A stretch of 64,000 nucleotides of DNA. Source: Sulfuricurvum sp. GTDB lineage: Bacteria; Campylobacterota; Campylobacteria; Campylobacterales; Sulfurimonadaceae. Made by a program: the position numbers and the translations under genes. Shown one piece after another: positions 6,762 to 27,957 of the stretch. Under the pieces are notes generated by a model. It made no database searches and was not told the origin of the DNA. It saw only the letters and a list, made by a program, of their open reading frames with translations. Each line of letters starts with the position of its first letter. The stretch's first letter is position 1. The stretch is taken from positions 1 through 64,000 of the forward strand of contig JAUYRN010000031.1 in NCBI GenBank assembly GCA_030696775.1. The letters are read 5' to 3'.

Positions 6762-7256
6762 TTAGAAATTTCGTTCTAATAATTTATGCACTTTCAAAAT
6801 GGTTACAATACGATCAGCTTGCTTACCAACACCGTCAATCATCGTTTCGCTTTCAGAAATCGTATCGGGTGCCGGTCCAATATCACGCTTGGGCATACGA
6901 ATCGCCTCGGTAAGTCTATCAATCACAAATCCTGCAACATCATCACCATTTTTCATAACGATAAAGCGAGTCTCATCCGTATGTTTTTGTAACGGCAAAC
7001 CAAAACGAGCCCGTAAATCAATCAACGGAATAACGGATCCGCGTAGATTAAAGACACCCAAAATGTACGATGGAATTTGCGGTACACGCGTCCAGCTAAT
7101 AGGTTTAATAATCTCTTGAATACTCAAGATGGGAATCGAAAATTCTTCTTCTCCAACGATAAAGCCCACCAATTGAATCACTTCATCGACTTTCTGATCA
7201 TCGCCGATGAGGGCTTGATTTTGTCTGTTAATGATTTGTTGTAATTTTTCGCTCAT
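6762..7256 (-). CDS. cheW: CheW chemotaxis coupling protein
   Basis: Scaffold linking chemoreceptors to the CheA kinase in polar arrays. The 164-residue protein carries a full CheW domain: VIQLVGFIVGEEEFSIPI (about 24-41), ISWTRVPQIPSYILGVFNLRGSVIPLIDLR in the middle, and the terminal ADRIVTIL strand. It follows cheA after 2 bases, giving the gene order cheV-cheA-cheW common in Campylobacterota. Confidence 0.95.
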   Translation of the reverse strand: MSEKLQQIINRQNQALIGDDQKVDEVIQLVGFIVGEEEFSIPILSIQEIIKPISWTRVPQIPSYILGVFNLRGSVIPLIDLRARFGLPLQKHTDETRFIVMKNGDDVAGFVIDRLTEAIRMPKRDIGPAPDTISESETMIDGVGKQADRIVTILKVHKLLERNF

Positions 7257-20422: not shown

Positions 20423-22534
20423 TTAGGTCAACCAACATGTCAAATGATACGCTATATATGCGAGTAAATAGGCTACTATCGTAGTAAAAGCAAAAAGATA
20501 GAAAAAATATTTAATTCCCCCTGCTTCACGTGTGAAGACAACCGATGCCGCTAAACACGGAAGGTAAGTCATTATCACTACAATAAACGCCACAGCAGAA
20601 GCCAATGGGATATGAGAACTAATGGCATGCATTAGTGAGTTATCTGATTCGGTAGCATCACTGCCCAGTGAATACAAAACTCCCAATGTCGAGACGACTA
20701 CCTCTTTTGCGGCCAATCCCGTCTGTAATGCCACTGCCATTTTCCAGTCAAAGCCAAGAGGAGCAAACACAGGCTGGATTGTATGCCCGATCACCCCTAA
20801 AAAACTTTGTTCCAATTGTGCTTCGGCGAGCTGGTTCTCTAAACTTTTCACCTCTTCTTTTGATGCTGCTGCTTCGATTTTTACCGTATACACAGCATCA
20901 AGGGAACTGTCTTTTGGATACGTACTTAAAAACCATACAATTAATGATGCAGCAGCGATAAAAGTCCCGGCTTTTTTGAGATACATCGTCGTTTTGGTCA
21001 CTACAGTATGCCATATCAGCTTCACCGATGGAAGCCGATACTTTGGCATTTCCATAACAAATGGCTCATCAATCCCTTTAAACGCAGTAATCTTTAATAC
21101 TTTAGCCGCAACTAATCCAATCATTGCGCCGAGAATATAGATGCCAAACAATACACTTCCCGCCATCTCGGGACCAAAAAATGCTCCGGTAAAAAGAACA
21201 TAAACCGGCAAACGGGCCCCACAGCTCATAAATCCAATGACAAATAATGTCAGCAGCCGATCCCGATCATTTTTAAGAATCCGTGCCGACATATACGCCG
21301 GTATCGAGCATCCGAATCCTGTAACGAGCGGGATAAATGACTGTCCGTGCAATCCAAATTTATGAAAAAATCCATCCAGTAAAAAAGCGACTCGTGACAT
21401 ATACCCCGTTGCTTCAAGCAATGCAATCCCCACAAACAATATAACAATATTGGGGACAAAAAGGACCACCGCCCCAACTCCTGAGATCACTCCATCGACT
21501 ACAAGAGAGCGGATTTCATCATTGCCGATCGTGGCTCCTATGGCCGCGCCGAACCAGCCGAAAAAGCCATTGATCCAATCCATCGGTATAGACCCGAGTT
21601 CAAAAGTGAGCTGAAACAATCCCCACATAAAAAAGAGAAAAATCGGTATTCCGAATATCGGATGAATCAATACGGCATCAATCTTTTCAGTCGTTGTTTT
21701 CTTCATCTGAGATTTGCTGTTGACTTTTACCGCTTCGGCAATAATTCCCCGATTAAAAGAGAAATACTCTTCTGCAAACGCCTCTTTCATATCATCCGTA
21801 TCGTGATGGAGCAATACATGACGATCTGCTTCGATCAACATCGGCTGAAGCTCTGTCCATATAGGGTTATCGCGAAGTGTTCGGTAGGTCTTTTTCTCTT
21901 GTTTCAACAAATTGATAGCAATATCACGGTTACTGATAGACGCTTTAAAATGGTGCCGATTTAGGTACTCTTCAAGTTGTCCTATCTCCTCTTCCACCGC
22001 TTCACTAAAAATAAGTTTAGGCACTTTAAAATCATTTTCGTAAATCTCTAAAATTTTTTTGAGCAGTTTCCCCAAGCCCGTCTGTTCAACCGCAGAAACT
22101 TTTATCGCTTCTACCCCTAAAAGCTGAGAAAGCATCCCCTCATCGATAAAAATACCTTCCTTTTTCGCTTCATCATTCATATTCAGCGCCAGAACCATCT
22201 TTTTATTCATACCCATAAGTTCAGCGGTAAGTTGAAGATTTTTTTCAAGATTGGTCGAATCAACGACATTTAAAATGATGTCATACTCTTCATTGCATAA
22301 AAAATCGTGAGTGACCCGCTCTTCGATCGAATAGTCGCTAAAAGCATAGGTTCCTGGAAGATCCACAACCCTCATCGAATATCCCTTAAATTCAAAAACA
22401 ACTTCGCTTTTTTCAACCGTTACCCCTGTAAAATTACCGACTTGCAGGCGTGCATTACTGATTGAATTAATCAGCATACTTTTACCGACATTAGGCTGCC
22501 CTACTAAGGCTACTTTAATTTTTTTATCGGACAT
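20423..22534 (-). CDS. feoB: FeoB ferrous iron transporter
   Basis: Inner-membrane Fe(II) uptake protein, 703 residues. The N-terminal GTPase has G1 GQPNVGKS (12-19), G2/G3 (VRVVDLPGTYAFS region) and G4-type NMND. The membrane part shows both Gate motifs: LFVPNIVILF ... SFIPLVTGFGCSIPAYMSAR and LFVIGFMSCGARLPVYVLF with its conserved Cys. It overlaps feoA by 11 bases. The family usually transports Fe(II) under low-oxygen, low-iron conditions. Confidence 0.97.
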   Translation of the reverse strand: MSDKKIKVALVGQPNVGKSMLINSISNARLQVGNFTGVTVEKSEVVFEFKGYSMRVVDLPGTYAFSDYSIEERVTHDFLCNEEYDIILNVVDSTNLEKNLQLTAELMGMNKKMVLALNMNDEAKKEGIFIDEGMLSQLLGVEAIKVSAVEQTGLGKLLKKILEIYENDFKVPKLIFSEAVEEEIGQLEEYLNRHHFKASISNRDIAINLLKQEKKTYRTLRDNPIWTELQPMLIEADRHVLLHHDTDDMKEAFAEEYFSFNRGIIAEAVKVNSKSQMKKTTTEKIDAVLIHPIFGIPIFLFFMWGLFQLTFELGSIPMDWINGFFGWFGAAIGATIGNDEIRSLVVDGVISGVGAVVLFVPNIVILFVGIALLEATGYMSRVAFLLDGFFHKFGLHGQSFIPLVTGFGCSIPAYMSARILKNDRDRLLTLFVIGFMSCGARLPVYVLFTGAFFGPEMAGSVLFGIYILGAMIGLVAAKVLKITAFKGIDEPFVMEMPKYRLPSVKLIWHTVVTKTTMYLKKAGTFIAAASLIVWFLSTYPKDSSLDAVYTVKIEAAASKEEVKSLENQLAEAQLEQSFLGVIGHTIQPVFAPLGFDWKMAVALQTGLAAKEVVVSTLGVLYSLGSDATESDNSLMHAISSHIPLASAVAFIVVIMTYLPCLAASVVFTREAGGIKYFFYLFAFTTIVAYLLAYIAYHLTCWLT

Positions 22535-22769
22535 TGCATACCTCGATCAGCTCGGCTTCTTCGCGGCGAAGCGCTAAAGAGACATTTCCCACTTTGATTT
22601 CAAACGTGCTTTTGGAAATTCCACACTCGAGCATTTTGACTTCACATCCCTTCATCAGCCCAAAAGAGATTAAACGTTGTTTTAACGGACCGGTTGCCTT
22701 AATTCTTGTCACTGTCGCCATACCACCTTTGGTACAGGCGCTTAATAGTGTCATCGTATCCTTGTTCAT
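22524..22769 (-). CDS. feoA: FeoA
   Basis: SH3-like cytosolic partner of FeoB, 81 residues from the chosen ATG. Hallmarks are the hydrophobic beta-barrel pattern GPLKQRLISFGLMKGCEVKML and the closing VSLALRREEAELIEV. AAAGG lies upstream of the ATG at 22769. A second ATG at 22757 also has AAGGA in range, and FeoA proteins often start MTL, so that shorter start is possible. It is translated ahead of feoB in one transcript. Confidence 0.93.
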   Translation of the reverse strand: MNKDTMTLLSACTKGGMATVTRIKATGPLKQRLISFGLMKGCEVKMLECGISKSTFEIKVGNVSLALRREEAELIEVCNVR

Positions 22770-22862
22770 TCTCAAAACCTTTAAAATGTATCGTTTATTC
22801 GTGCGAGAAAACGGCTATATCCAGCATCGTTCCCTCCATCAAAATTTTTATCTCGATCCTCT

Positions 22863-22891
22863 ATTTTAGCATAAGTCACATCTGTACTCAA
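22863..22891 (-). promoter_or_regulatory. feoAB promoter
   Basis: On the minus strand TTGAGT (22886-22891), a 17-base spacer and TAAAAT (22863-22868) preceded by TGC, giving an extended -10. Transcription would start near 22856, leaving a leader of about 87 bases before feoA. Confidence 0.5.
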
Positions 22892-22901
22892 CTTCACACT
22901 A

Positions 22902-22916
22902 ATAATTTTCGATTAT
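22902..22916. promoter_or_regulatory. operator-like palindrome upstream of feoAB
   Basis: ATAAT-TTTCG-ATTAT is a perfect 5-bp inverted repeat just upstream of the feoAB -35 box. It overlaps the end of the preceding gene. Its AT-rich character and position suit an iron regulator, but it matches the classical Fur consensus only partly. Confidence 0.3.
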
Positions 22917-23344
22917 CTGAACTCTTGTAGTGTTTGCTTGAAAAGTAAAGTCCAAATCCATAACAGTGCAATTTGAAAGCCGAGAAACGCAAAGAGTTTA
23001 AGTACGGCAAAGGATTCCAAACCTATACTAATAAACAGTGGGCTGAACTGATCGAGAAAAAAAAGAATAAAGAGGAAATAGGTCGCTTTTTTTGTAGTTT
23101 TGGGATCAATGGTTTTAATAAACGCCAAAAAATGGAGCACTGCCATAAGAGCTATAGAGATAAAAAGGGTATGGGGAAGAGTCACTTCCAACAACCCATG
23201 CAATGATTTATTTCCATAATACACACTCACATCGTGAACGCTAAATCCGACCAATCGTCCAAAAAGCACTACCCCTAAAAAGGCTTGCAGTATCACCAGA
23301 GTGCTAAATGCCAAGGCTAGAAACTGTAAAACTTTAGAATTCAT
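22913..23344 (-). CDS. small four-helix membrane protein of the iron locus
   Basis: 143 residues with four predicted membrane helices (about 7-28, 52-75, 85-100, 112-135). No family recognised. His residues lie in or near helix 2 (LHGLLEVTLPH and VLHFLAF), in positions where b-heme ligands would be expected, but heme binding is only a guess. Its ATG overlaps the stop of the preceding membrane-protein gene (TAATG), so the two are probably made in matched amounts. It is the last gene of the porin/FMN-protein operon and lies immediately upstream of feoAB. Confidence 0.65.
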   Translation of the reverse strand: MNSKVLQFLALAFSTLVILQAFLGVVLFGRLVGFSVHDVSVYYGNKSLHGLLEVTLPHTLFISIALMAVLHFLAFIKTIDPKTTKKATYFLFILFFLDQFSPLFISIGLESFAVLKLFAFLGFQIALLWIWTLLFKQTLQEFR

Positions 23345-23823
23345 TAGAATTTTTTCCGTAGAAGCCCTATGAGGGAATCTAGCCCCCCCATAATCATCAA
23401 GCTATGGAATAGGATAAATGCACTCAAAGAAAGAATAACTCCAGCACTGCCAATTAACGGAGAAAAAAGCATCCCGATAGGATAAGCGAGGAGTGAGAGC
23501 AAGGAAAGGGTTAAGAAACTAATCATCATAACACGGCTGCGTCCCATGCGTGCATAGACAGAAGCTATAAGAATAAACGTAATGATAAGCCCAAAAAGAT
23601 CAGTATGAATTCCCAAAAGAAGATCATTAAAGCTCATCGGATCGATAAACTCCGCTTCATTACCCAATACGGTAGCACTCCACTCCATTGGTGTCACTCC
23701 ATAATCGATTCCTTTTGCGGCCATACTAAGCACCATGGCAAGAATAAGAGAGAAGAGCATGACACTAATAATTGAGCTCATCATGCTGTTATCAGAGAGT
23801 TTTTTAGAGGCGATAAATTTCAT
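23344..23823 (-). CDS. small four-helix membrane protein of the iron locus
   Basis: 159 residues. Four hydrophobic segments: about 18-38, 70-92, 98-118 and 124-148. One extracytoplasmic loop lies between helices 1 and 2 (GVTPMEWSATVLGNEAEFIDP). Single His residues fall at the start of helix 2 (LGIHTDLFGLI) and in helix 4 (LFHSLMIMGG). No domain recognised. It begins 2 bases after the FMN-binding gene. By position it is a likely membrane partner of that flavoprotein, passing electrons or anchoring a complex. Confidence 0.65.
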   Translation of the reverse strand: MKFIASKKLSDNSMMSSIISVMLFSLILAMVLSMAAKGIDYGVTPMEWSATVLGNEAEFIDPMSFNDLLLGIHTDLFGLIITFILIASVYARMGRSRVMMISFLTLSLLSLLAYPIGMLFSPLIGSAGVILSLSAFILFHSLMIMGGLDSLIGLLRKKF

Positions 23824-23825
23824 TT

Positions 23826-24341
23826 TTAAGGCTTAATAATATCGAGTAGAGAAAGAGCAAGACGTGCTCCGTCAGTAATAGCACGAGCGGATAATGTTGC
23901 TCCAGTTGTGGTTGGAATGTCTTGATTTAGTTTGAGCGTGTTGGCACTGCTTTTTTGATCAAACACATTGAGCCATGTTGCCGTGGGGAGGTACTCGATA
24001 GGCTCATTAAAGGCAACGATTTCAATCGATTTAATTTTACCGTCTACTCCAACGAGATAGAGGGAAATAGCTGTTTTAGTACGAACTTTTTTATTCAAAA
24101 GCACTCCGTAGCCCACTGTCTTCAAGTCGTTTTTAGCGATATAGAGGCGATAAATTTTCGTCTCTATAGGCTGTTGTGACGCTTTGACAAGCTGTTGCAT
24201 TTGCACGTCATTTAAAATAACGTTTTGTTGCTCCACCGATTTGGCCCCGAATGTCCGTTGAGTCAATGCTACGGGATCACCCAAAACCTGAGCGAACGCC
24301 AAAAGAGGTAATACTAAAAGAAATAAAACGGTTTTAATCAA
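23826..24341 (-). CDS. exported FMN-binding domain protein (NqrC/RnfG-type)
   Basis: 171 residues. After a signal sequence (VLFLLVLPLLAFAQ) is a compact FMN_bind domain. The flavinylation motif TTGATLS (residues 145-151) puts T149 as the predicted covalent FMN site, joined by a phosphoester bond made by ApbE. The divergent neighbour at 25804 encodes ApbE, which fits. The likely role is a periplasmic one-electron carrier. It shares 4 bases with the porin gene (ATGA) and precedes two small membrane proteins. Confidence 0.85.
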   Translation of the reverse strand: MIKTVLFLLVLPLLAFAQVLGDPVALTQRTFGAKSVEQQNVILNDVQMQQLVKASQQPIETKIYRLYIAKNDLKTVGYGVLLNKKVRTKTAISLYLVGVDGKIKSIEIVAFNEPIEYLPTATWLNVFDQKSSANTLKLNQDIPTTTGATLSARAITDGARLALSLLDIIKP

Positions 24342-25678
24342 AATATAAATCCTAATCCAAACGAGTAGATACCTTCATTACTATAGTTGGCTGAGTCGGC
24401 ATCATTTTTGTTATGACGCACTTTGTACTCCCCTTTTAAGACCACTTGTTCATGGGGGAAGTAATTCAGACCATAGGTAAAGCTTTCTGTATTTCCAAAC
24501 GCAATCCCATTGACCATTGATGTGGCTAACTTGTAGTTTTCGTATTGGAAAAAGATCGGTAATCGTGCATTTGCTTGTATAAAATATGGTAAGACATTAT
24601 ACTCTAAATTCACATAGCCTCCCCGTGCAGATTCGGGATGAAATGGAAAATCGAGAGTTGTATCACCGACCGTATGAAGTCCGAGATAAGAATCCGCATG
24701 GCTTAAATGTGCTTGGGCATAAAGTCCTTTGATTTTAAAACCCTCATTTTGATATTGGGCATGAAGATCAGCAAGGGTTAAGCGTCCCACTTCTTTATCA
24801 TTCGTAGAGGGACCTGCTTCTCCTGTATAGAAGCTTGCACCTATAAGGAGACCGTTAATCCCAGTGTAATCGAGACGAGCGACAGCCGCAAGATTGGAGG
24901 TTTGACTGTTTGTTTCATTCCCTCCGCGACGACCATCCCGAATCCAGTTTTTACCATAAGTTCCTTCATCAGGAACTCCATCATGATTTGCAAGACCCAT
25001 ATCCAATGCTACAACCGCACCTACTGCATAATTGAACGTGTCCGTTTTTCCATAAACCGTTAATCCATTTTCATGCCACGTTGAGGGAATAAGGTAATTT
25101 TCGACATCAGGACGTTTTACCGTATTATAAAGTACCGGCTCATGATTTTGATTAATAAGCCCCATAGGGACAACTTGTTGACCCAAACGAACGTTAAATG
25201 CCGGGTTAATCAAAAAATCAAGATAAAGCTGCTCAATCGCTATTTCTGCACCGCCGTGCTCAAATTCAATTTCAGAATTCAAGATGATAGTATCGCTAAA
25301 CTTATATCCGATATAAGGGACAAAGCGATAGACCTCCGTCTCGTCCGCACCCGAATGCTCTTGGTGTGTGTAATACATTTCACCATATCCACCAATAGAG
25401 AGCGGATTTTTAGAATAATAAACTTTTGATGCTGCTGCACCCAAGCCTGCTTCAGTTTTAGACATATCGACACTGCTAAACGAGGTCGCGTTTTGAACAT
25501 TAATCAGTTCAGATGTAAGAGCATTGGTTTGTTCACCCTGCTTTTTATCATTCGCTTCTAGCGCACTGAGACGTTCACTTAGAATTTTAAGCTGTACTTT
25601 TAGGTCACTTAGCTCATCAGCCGATAATGCAGTGGTAATCGCCATAGCGGCAACAGTACTTAGGAAGAGTTTTTTCAT
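24338..25678 (-). CDS. outer-membrane porin with N-terminal coiled coil
   Basis: 446 residues from the chosen ATG (MKKLFLSTVAAMAITTALSA signal peptide), which has AAAGGA upstream. An open frame extends 27 codons further but lacks a signal. After the signal is a coiled coil (LSDLKVQLKILSERLSALEAN), then a beta-barrel with alternating aromatic strands ending in YSFGLGFIF, where the terminal Phe is typical of BAM substrates. It resembles phosphate-selective-type (OprO/P) porins, but the substrate is not evident. First gene of the operon, with a Fur-box-like site at its promoter, so a role in iron or iron-chelate entry is inferred. Confidence 0.8.
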   Translation of the reverse strand: MKKLFLSTVAAMAITTALSADELSDLKVQLKILSERLSALEANDKKQGEQTNALTSELINVQNATSFSSVDMSKTEAGLGAAASKVYYSKNPLSIGGYGEMYYTHQEHSGADETEVYRFVPYIGYKFSDTIILNSEIEFEHGGAEIAIEQLYLDFLINPAFNVRLGQQVVPMGLINQNHEPVLYNTVKRPDVENYLIPSTWHENGLTVYGKTDTFNYAVGAVVALDMGLANHDGVPDEGTYGKNWIRDGRRGGNETNSQTSNLAAVARLDYTGINGLLIGASFYTGEAGPSTNDKEVGRLTLADLHAQYQNEGFKIKGLYAQAHLSHADSYLGLHTVGDTTLDFPFHPESARGGYVNLEYNVLPYFIQANARLPIFFQYENYKLATSMVNGIAFGNTESFTYGLNYFPHEQVVLKGEYKVRHNKNDADSANYSNEGIYSFGLGFIF

Positions 25679-25693
25679 CGGGTATCCTTTTAT

Positions 25694-25712
25694 GATAGTG
25701 ATTATTGATTGC
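25694..25712. promoter_or_regulatory. Fur-box-like site at the porin promoter
   Basis: GATAGTGATTATTGATTGC (12 of 19 to the Fur consensus). It covers the expected transcription start of the porin operon, whose minus-strand TATAAT is at 25716-25721. Confidence 0.45.
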
Positions 25713-25748
25713 GAAATTATAGAGCAGCAAGCTGAAAGCAATATTAAT

Positions 25749-25767
25749 AATGCAAACAATTATCATT
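25749..25767. promoter_or_regulatory. Fur-box-like site upstream of apbE
   Basis: AATGCAAACAATTATCATT, or AATGATAATTGTTTGCATT on the other strand, resembles the Fur 6-1-6 pattern. It lies between the divergent porin and apbE promoters. Confidence 0.4.
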
Positions 25768-25803
25768 TAGAAAAAGATGCTGTTCAAATGGTACACTTTC
25801 GGT

Positions 25804-26760
25804 ATGAAAGCATTATTCTTTTTTTTATCTCTAGTAATTTTTCTTTTCGGCGATGAGCGGGTTCAGATGCATATGGGAACCCTCATCAGTGTCAATATTA
25901 CTGACCATGACGAGGTTTTTATACCCGCAGGAGATGAAAATCTTACGGATGAGGTATTTTCCCTTTTTAAAGATTTGGATGAGAAGCTCTCAACCTATAA
26001 AAGTGATTCGGAAATTTCACGATTGAATCGTGATCATGAAGCAAATCTATCGAATGTAACACGTACTGTTTTAGAGCGGTCGATAGAAATGAATCACAAA
26101 ACGCAAGGTGCCTTTGATATAACAATCGGTTCTTTAAGCCATGGAGCATACCATTTCGGAACACAGGAAAAACTCCCAACATCAGCAGAGATCCAGCATG
26201 CTTTGACTTTTGTAGGTGGAACCCATATTTGGATGGATCACGAGAAAGTAAGTGTGACAAAGGGAACGATTATAGATTTAGGCGGTATTGGCAAAGGATA
26301 CGCGGTTGATCTCTCTATCACTTTATTAGAACGCCGTGGAGTCAAAAAAGCGGTGATTGCTGCATCGGGAGATATTGGGTGCTTAGGAGAATGTGAGGTA
26401 CGTATCCAAGATCCTTTTCATTCTAAAGGTATCGTTGCAACCGTAACTTCAATTTTGCCTCGATTTGCCATCAGTACCAGTGGTAATTATGAACGCTATA
26501 TTCGTAATAAAGAGCATAATCATCTTCTCAATCCGAAAACAGGAAAATCTGAGCAAAATTTTGCTTCGGTAACGTTGTTTGGAAAAGGGGACAACACCGC
26601 GTTAGATGCAATCGCCACAGGTGTTTCTATTATGAGAGTAGATCAGGCAATCGCACTATTAGAACGTGAAAATATCGGATATTTTTTGATTCACAATGAT
26701 GGACATATATTTCAAAGTAAGATAATAGAAGGAATTAGGATAGAAAATAACGAACAGTAA
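25804..26760 (+). CDS. apbE: ApbE-type FAD:protein FMN transferase
   Basis: Attaches FMN to Thr of exported flavoproteins using FAD. 318 residues from the chosen ATG, whose N-terminus (MKALFFFLSLVIFLFG) is an export signal. Motifs: STYKSDSEISRLN, GAFDITIGSL, DLGGIGKGYAVD (FAD and metal site), AASGDIG and the final TALDAIATGVSIM. The expected substrate is the FMN-binding protein encoded divergently (T149). An upstream ATG at 25777 would delay the signal and was rejected. No Shine-Dalgarno precedes the ATG. TACACT (25792-25797) sits 6 bases before it, which would give a leaderless mRNA. Confidence 0.93.
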   Translation: MKALFFFLSLVIFLFGDERVQMHMGTLISVNITDHDEVFIPAGDENLTDEVFSLFKDLDEKLSTYKSDSEISRLNRDHEANLSNVTRTVLERSIEMNHKTQGAFDITIGSLSHGAYHFGTQEKLPTSAEIQHALTFVGGTHIWMDHEKVSVTKGTIIDLGGIGKGYAVDLSITLLERRGVKKAVIAASGDIGCLGECEVRIQDPFHSKGIVATVTSILPRFAISTSGNYERYIRNKEHNHLLNPKTGKSEQNFASVTLFGKGDNTALDAIATGVSIMRVDQAIALLERENIGYFLIHNDGHIFQSKIIEGIRIENNEQ

Positions 26761-26764
26761 AAGT

Positions 26765-26783
26765 AATAACGATTATCACTATT
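26765..26783. promoter_or_regulatory. Fur box upstream of the MauG-like gene (distal)
   Basis: AATAACGATTATCACTATT matches the Fur consensus GATAATGATTATCATTATC at 15 of 19 positions. Confidence 0.6.
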
Positions 26784-26813
26784 GACTTATAGCATCTCTT
26801 ATGATATATTTCT

Positions 26814-26832
26814 GAAAATCATTATCATAAAG
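26814..26832. promoter_or_regulatory. Fur box upstream of the MauG-like gene (proximal)
   Basis: GAAAATCATTATCATAAAG matches the Fur consensus at 14 of 19 positions. It lies immediately upstream of the AAAGGA ribosome-binding site. Together with the site at 26765-26783 it would give strong iron repression. Confidence 0.55.
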
Positions 26833-26841
26833 GATGTTCGA

Positions 26842-27957
26842 ATGAAAACATCAAGTTCCATAACCTTAGCACTCTCTACCACATTGGTTTTTCTCTTGAG
26901 TGGCTGCAATGAAGGTTCTACTTCCTCTGCCCACTCTTCTACTGAAGTTGATTTAGCGACTCTAGGTGAAGCACTATTTTTTGATACAAATCTCTCCGAA
27001 CCTTCAGGTCAATCGTGTGCATCGTGTCATACAGCGGCAAATGGATTCGCCGATCCTGATAGCAATTTGTCTACATCGGAAGGCGTTATTGCAGGACAAT
27101 TTGGAACACGAAACACTCCGACAGCTGCCTATGCGGTATTCGTTCCTGCTTTTATTTATGATGTTGTGGAAGGACTCTATACGGGAGGGCAATTCTTAGA
27201 TGGTCGCGCTTCACTGCTTGAAGATCAAGCCAAAGGACCACCGCTAAATCCGATAGAAATGCACAATCCCAATAAGGCATCGTATGTTGCCAAAGTAGCG
27301 GCAGCATCCTATGCTCCTTTAGCCAAAAAAATCTTCGGGTTAAATGTATTTGATGACCCAGAAACGGCATACGATAAAATTGCACGCGCTATTGCCGCGT
27401 ATGAGCGGACGAAAGTATTTTCACCCTTTAGCTCAAAATTTGATGCCTATATTAAAGGAACGGCAACGCTAAGTGCACAAGAGCTCGAAGGGTTATCTCT
27501 ATTTGAAGGAAAAGCACAGTGTGTCGCATGTCATCCGACCCGTCCTACCGCTGACGGTACACCGGGATTGTTCACTGATTTTACGTATGATAATCTAGGA
27601 GTTCCAAAAAACATGGCTATTCCTGCCTATGCTGCCGATGCCAACTTTACCGATATTGGTCTTGCTGGAAATATTAAAGTTATTGCCGATGGACGAGCGG
27701 CTGAGAATCGAGGGAAATTCAAAGTGTCAACATTGCGTAACATCGCTATAACGGGACCGTATATGCACAATGGTGTATTTAAAACACTTAAAGAGGTCGT
27801 ATCATTTTACAATACACGGGATACAAACCAAAGCCGTTGGGGCGCTGCGGAAATTCCTGAAACAGTCAATCACACCGAACTTGGGAATCTAGGACTCAGT
27901 GATACTGAAGAAGATGCTATTGTTGCATTTTTACAAACACTTACGGATACTTATTAA
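26842..27957 (+). CDS. diheme cytochrome c peroxidase / MauG-family lipoprotein
   Basis: 371 residues from the ATG preceded by AAAGGATG. A lipoprotein signal ends FLLSGC (C22). The two heme c sites are SCASCH (C59, C62, H63) and QCVACH (C227, C230, H231), with family regions LGEALFFD, GTRNTPTAAY, GGQFLDGRA, NPIEM and KFKVSTLRNIAITGPYMHNG. The family reduces H2O2 or oxidises protein/metal substrates in the periplasm; which applies here is not clear. The two Fur boxes upstream tie it to iron status. It is co-directional with apbE, 80 bases away, but appears to have its own promoter. Confidence 0.9.
   Translation: MKTSSSITLALSTTLVFLLSGCNEGSTSSAHSSTEVDLATLGEALFFDTNLSEPSGQSCASCHTAANGFADPDSNLSTSEGVIAGQFGTRNTPTAAYAVFVPAFIYDVVEGLYTGGQFLDGRASLLEDQAKGPPLNPIEMHNPNKASYVAKVAAASYAPLAKKIFGLNVFDDPETAYDKIARAIAAYERTKVFSPFSSKFDAYIKGTATLSAQELEGLSLFEGKAQCVACHPTRPTADGTPGLFTDFTYDNLGVPKNMAIPAYAADANFTDIGLAGNIKVIADGRAAENRGKFKVSTLRNIAITGPYMHNGVFKTLKEVVSFYNTRDTNQSRWGAAEIPETVNHTELGNLGLSDTEEDAIVAFLQTLTDTY

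Follow-up and report, generated by a model that had tools for sequence, protein, structure and literature searches.

The window, by which we mean the whole 64,000-nucleotide stretch analysed here, carries a compact unit of genes for an outer-membrane porin, an FMN_bind protein (hereafter FMN protein) and two short membrane proteins, memB and memA (Table 1). The genes follow one another in this order, and usually apbE lies alongside. The start of the FMN protein gene overlaps the porin stop by four bases. The sequence-only reading of this region had proposed two short, translationally coupled frames with four helices each. In accordance, both frames are present in the list of open reading frames, AlphaFold2 predicts four helices in each, and at their junction (TTCTAATGAATTC) the TAA stop of memB and the ATG start of memA share one base (TAATG). 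The gap between memA and feoA (22776-22912) lacks terminator-like sites and has a single, weak promoter-like site, so transcriptional read-through from memA into feoAB is possible.

Table 1 Features of the gene unit and its surroundings in the window.
Feature	Position	Strand	Basis
FeoB ferrous iron transporter, downstream of FeoA	20423..22534	-	PF02421
FeoA, downstream of memA	22524..22775	-	PF04023
memA, 143-aa four-helix membrane protein	22913..23344	-	ORF, AlphaFold2 model, N-in topology
memB, 159-aa four-helix membrane protein	23344..23823	-	ORF, AlphaFold2 model, topology
FMN_bind protein (PF04205)	23826..24341	-	Pfam E 2.9e-6; TTG start
Outer-membrane porin, N-terminal coiled coil, first gene of unit	24338..25678	-	Probable start 25678, 446 aa
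Fur-box-like palindrome just upstream of porin	25693..25707	.	11/14 letters, conserved block
Second Fur-box-like palindrome	25751..25765	.	11/14 letters, conserved block
ApbE flavin transferase, divergent from porin	25777..26760	+	PF02424 E 4.5e-62; start probably 25804

Conservation of the unit and its flavin proteins

A single-sequence search with memB matches 30 of 298 genomes of the phylum at E ≤ 0.01. We keep 23 of these at E < 1e-6; the seven dropped matches (E 2e-4 or worse) all have stops inside the match. A scan of GTDB species contigs for close relatives adds nine loci; it is the sole scan reaching outside Campylobacterota, where the unit may also occur. With wider stretches from 20 of the 22 kept relatives, the set comprises 29 neighbourhoods (L031-L059) besides the window. 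For conservation counts, the other two kept relatives (G009, G129) and 13 genomes from a memA profile search are added, giving 44 loci in total.

Profile searches of the 29 neighbourhoods find memB in 29 (by the choice of loci), the FMN protein in 29, memA in 28, the porin in 27 and ApbE in 26. Most of the gaps are contig ends: L037 stops after memB, and L032 and L034 are short contigs. In L048, ApbE is absent nearby and two ApbE are found elsewhere in the genome. Scanning of the 44 loci shows memB and memA on the same strand in all 43 that hold both, the remaining contig ending after memB. Beyond the five genes, no wider neighbour is shared by most loci, bar a loose signalling-protein cluster (16/29), and no further integral membrane protein is constant in the unit among the 29 neighbourhoods. 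A search of plasmids yields no memA or memB relative. In L052 (G027), several short frames stand upstream of position 6960 in place of a recognisable porin.

The memA profile matches 40 of 397 genomes, of which two are dropped (E above 3e-4, internal stops). We compare the resulting 38 genomes with 20 of the memA-negative relatives. ApbE is found in 38/38 genomes with memA and in 4/20 without it (Fisher 6e-11), and FMN_bind, as defined by Pfam, in 30/38 and 0/20, respectively (Fisher 2e-9); because the genomes are related, these Fisher values overstate independence. Six of the eight genomes missed by Pfam hold the FMN protein according to its own profile, the other two being G358 and G361. The sequence-only reading had associated the membrane pair with the FMN protein, and the strong genomic linkage of memA/memB to the FMN protein and ApbE bears this out.

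Both flavin-related proteins score over their Pfam gathering thresholds (28.3 vs 22 bits for the FMN protein; 210.4 vs 25.6 bits for ApbE). The FMN protein keeps the motif [TS]GAT(L/M)SA throughout its homologues. In particular, residues G147, A148 and T149 are invariant in 30 sequences and are preceded by T or S. Given this motif and the ApbE gene next door, T149 very probably carries the flavin. FMN_bind and ApbE each match once in the window genome; therefore, the FMN protein is the only recognised FMN_bind target of ApbE in that genome.

An FMN_bind domain with a flavinylated threonine is known from NqrC (PMC8238504) and RnfG. The FMN protein shares this domain and, very probably, the modified threonine. 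Unlike NqrC and RnfG, it looks soluble and exported, as judged from an N-terminal signal-like stretch, and is the sole FMN_bind match of its genome. Like the FMN_bind protein of the P19/FTR1 systems outlined in the same source (PMC8238504), it occurs in a putative iron assimilation cluster, but its constant partners are the porin and memA/memB.

The membrane pair and its histidines

In the AlphaFold2 models, memA is composed of helices 3-31, 48-75, 81-106 and 111-142 (pLDDT 88, pTM 0.79) and memB of helices 13-41, 62-91, 97-124 and 126-155 (pLDDT 82.8, pTM 0.81). The two models were built from 9 and 10 sequences, and pLDDT ranges from 62 to 83 across the five memB models. K+R counts predict an N-in, C-in topology for both proteins. 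When the profiles of memA and memB are compared by hhalign, 137 columns align with a probability of 93.7%, which identifies the two proteins, on the level of profiles, as distant paralogues, and the pair probably arose by duplication. The sequence-only reading contained neither this paralogy nor the link to iron through Fur-like operators and feoAB.

That reading had pointed to a few histidines near the helices as possible ligands of b-type heme, which would give the FMN protein a path to the quinone pool. The named residues are indeed present (memA H49, H58 and H71; memB H73 and H140), and all except H49 are conserved; lack of conservation, by which that reading would have been refuted, thus applies to one residue of the five. 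H58 and H71, both on helix 2 of memA, are each found in 44/44 sequences; on memB, H73 (helix 2) is found in 45/45 and H140 (helix 4) in 44/45. H49 (15/44) and also memA H37 (10/44) are not conserved. The sole memB homologue with H140 replaced (L039, 5001-5480) has Asn at this position, which counts against the two-heme reading proposed below, and its memA keeps H58 and H71. Other residues conserved in at least 95% of the sequences are F28, P57, F72 and F75 of memA and F3, G42, G54, L69, F77 and R92 of memB, plus its start Met. The chance of histidines filling the conserved columns in this way is 0.002 for memB and 0.009 for memA, with columns treated as independent.

The four conserved histidines are spread over the two subunits, two on memA and two on memB. 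H58 and H73 are positioned at equal depth, each displaced by 6 residues from the centre of the helix-2 core toward the periplasm, and H71 and H140 lie on the cytoplasmic side of the helix centre, by 7 and 2 residues, respectively. The matching depths suggest the ligand pairs H58-H73 and H71-H140, so that two hemes could be stacked across the membrane. With regard to orientation, the conserved helix face includes H71 and H73 and has H140 close by, which places these residues, H140 more loosely, toward the interior; the question whether the histidines face lipid is thereby answered in part. H58, however, points about 100 degrees off the conserved face, which counts against the reading proposed below; Pro57 beside it may bend the helix. 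Overall, the earlier proposal of heme and an FMN connection is partly supported.

Searches of memA and memB against Pfam and NCBIfam return chance-level matches only. One of 29 memA homologues touches DUF3180 (E 1.4e-4), which the others do not, and a single memB homologue gives a CybS match at E 0.53. Sequence and profile searches against solved structures give nothing convincing. Foldseek and VIA-align retrieve generic helical bundles only, with no Foldseek E below 0.3 and no cytochrome-like membrane fold standing out. In these searches no relation to a known cytochrome is found in sequence or fold, and this counts against the reading proposed below.

Other membrane cytochromes have been described for the same electron-transfer job (PMC8238504, PMC11334425). 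Among them, PepSY-like and MsrQ-like cytochromes are presented there as inner-membrane heme carriers to periplasmic FMN that are linked to iron reduction (PMC8238504, PMC11334425). At E ≤ 1, their models (PF03929, PF16357 and PF01794) match 0/29 memA and 0/30 memB homologues. Heme b is bound by DUF4405 proteins and FezC, which are located near flavinylation clusters or in ferrosomes (PMC11334425). They resemble memA/memB in being small multi-helix membrane proteins with central histidines, encoded near flavinylation or ferrosome genes, and the heme sites of FezC are built by dimerisation (PMC11334425), a likeness to the two-subunit carrier proposed below. Unlike them, memA and memB form a two-gene pair with four helices each and with histidines on helix 2 of both subunits and helix 4 of memB. 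Membership of DUF4405 itself is rejected: hhalign gives 0.2 to 3.5% against DUF4405 proteins of the same phylum, compared with 93.9% for a positive control, and the DUF4405 model is unmatched by memA/memB homologues. By these comparisons, memA/memB is a membrane component that matches none of the published ones considered here.

Fur-box-like palindromes at the unit

Sites were scored over 14 letters against the palindrome TGATAATNATTATCA, which we take to be the Fur box consensus. At a score of at least 12/14, the porin upstream regions of 27 loci (8,300 bp in total) contain 37 sites, compared with 11 in the remaining 410,102 bp of these loci, an enrichment of about 166-fold. With this consensus, 23/27 loci have such a palindrome upstream of the porin. 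At the porin promoter, the window, L031, L035 and L036 reach 11/14 only, and the 11/14 pair in the window is not significant alone (20/527 stretches of equal size within the window do as well), which counts against it. When nine Sulfuricurvum-type promoters are aligned, both palindromes appear as conserved blocks flanking a TATAAT-like hexamer, which in the window is the TATAAT at 25716-25721.

In three loci (the window, L031 and L033) a diheme peroxidase gene lies near apbE, and six of the 11 sites elsewhere are located upstream of it. In the window, this MauG/MbnH-like gene spans 26782-27957, with a start probably at about 26842, and the palindromes at its start are 26764-26778 (12/14) and 26813-26827 (13/14, the best of the window); the pair is also present in L031 and L033.

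In five genomes picked for strong module sites, 24 sites are found genome-wide at no more than one mismatch, compared with 4 for a reversed control; seven of the 24 are the module's own. Among the other 17, for all of which the adjacent genes were inspected, a palindrome precedes feoA (L157), another lies 300 bp ahead of a feoB reading frame (L153), and three precede OprD-family porins (one in L154, two in L155). The remaining non-module palindromes lie before other or unclear genes or within genes. That only 2/17 non-module palindromes sit before feo genes counts against a link to iron, as does the finding that, among the 29 neighbourhoods and the window, L031 and the window alone have feoAB next to the unit. 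The other palindromes of the window genome give no clear pointer to iron genes (15/49 sites examined). Taken together, the enrichment and the feo-associated palindromes support, short of proof, a control of the unit by Fur. In L161 (4-2172, minus strand; G186), a 723-aa protein, hydrophobic in its N-terminal part and matching a cytochrome d1-like propeller, starts at a Fur-box-like palindrome.

A putative electron path and its alternatives

The unit combines a periplasmic flavin carrier and its loading enzyme with a porin and a membrane pair that has heme-type histidines; most economically, this is read as a chain from quinol to Fe(III). We propose that memA and memB form an inner-membrane heterodimer holding two b-type hemes between its subunits, an arrangement that the paralogy of the two proteins fits as a pseudo-symmetric pair. 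The heme on the periplasmic side would be ligated by memA H58 and memB H73 and the inner heme by memA H71 and memB H140. Electrons would pass from menaquinol through memA/memB to the FMN attached by ApbE to the threonine of the periplasmic protein. The reduced FMN protein would in turn reduce Fe(III) compounds entering via the co-encoded porin, and the Fe(II) would be taken up by FeoAB. Shortage of iron would switch the unit on through Fur. Such a path agrees with published ties between flavinylation clusters and iron reduction (PMC8238504) and, for E. coli, with a supply of iron to Feo via a porin (PMC7315122). We give the full reading, that of Fur-controlled iron reduction by a two-heme cytochrome b from quinol to periplasmic FMN, a probability of roughly 0.55; heme binding by the memA/memB pair, taken for itself, is likely.

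The substrate is the part of the path on which the heme and flavin evidence has no bearing, since all of it fits equally a diheme carrier whose FMN protein feeds a different periplasmic reductase or an electron acceptor, other than iron, that enters through the porin. We regard such a role as rather unlikely. It would agree with the restriction of adjoining feo genes to two closely related loci, and a multicopper oxidase gene lies near the unit in L041 (8887-10536; Pfam-tested), with relatives in L042 and L050. The palindromes, however, recur upstream of the porin in most loci and also before feo genes, and no other conserved enzyme accompanies the unit. The same iron-type operators suggest an assimilatory, reducing role, which makes it very improbable that electrons flow inward, with the FMN protein oxidising a periplasmic substrate and memA/memB delivering the electrons to the quinone pool, even though the sequence does not fix the direction and a reversed flow is conceivable in systems of this kind (PMC8238504).

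Two further explanations dispense with heme. Histidines within a membrane are able to bind metals, and iron-type operators would also suit a metal permease or channel in which they bind Fe(II) or Cu(I). Beside the four histidines, however, the helices have no conserved acidic residue, Cys or Met, the conserved set being made up of His, Phe, Gly, Pro, Leu and a single Arg; FeoB is already present in the window, and the FMN protein, its electrons then coming from elsewhere, would be left without an electron source in the unit. We consider a permease improbable. Quite improbable, too, is a structural role, in which memA/memB serves as an anchor or assembly factor for the FMN protein or ApbE, with another purpose for the histidines. 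It would accord with a cofactor that is only predicted and with the lack of homology to redox proteins in our searches, but anchoring alone hardly explains four conserved histidines at matching depths.

If the proposed quinol-to-Fe(III) path is true, it adds a further route by which flavinylated periplasmic proteins receive electrons from the membrane, with a carrier made of two short paralogous subunits that are unnamed in the family databases searched here. It would also mean that Campylobacterota such as Sulfuricurvum possess a complete ferric reduction unit under the control of Fur, and both unnamed protein families as well as the neighbouring porin would gain a function. In the open-licence literature, we recognise no description of the porin/FMN_bind/memB/memA unit.

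A more speculative extension, which we think has little chance of being correct, assigns the porin a direct part. The FMN protein, reduced by the diheme pair, would dock on or in the porin and, for iron assimilation, pass electrons to Fe(III) located at the outer membrane or outside it. The multiheme porin-cytochrome conduits would then have a counterpart that is based on flavin. That the porin itself has a flavinylation site is rejected, [ST]GA[ST] occurring in 3/28 porin sequences and not being conserved. Comparison of the porin with solved structures gives chance matches only. The Porin_O_P family (PF07396) matches 18/27 porin homologues at E ≤ 0.5, the window copy not among them, with a best E value of 6.6e-8.
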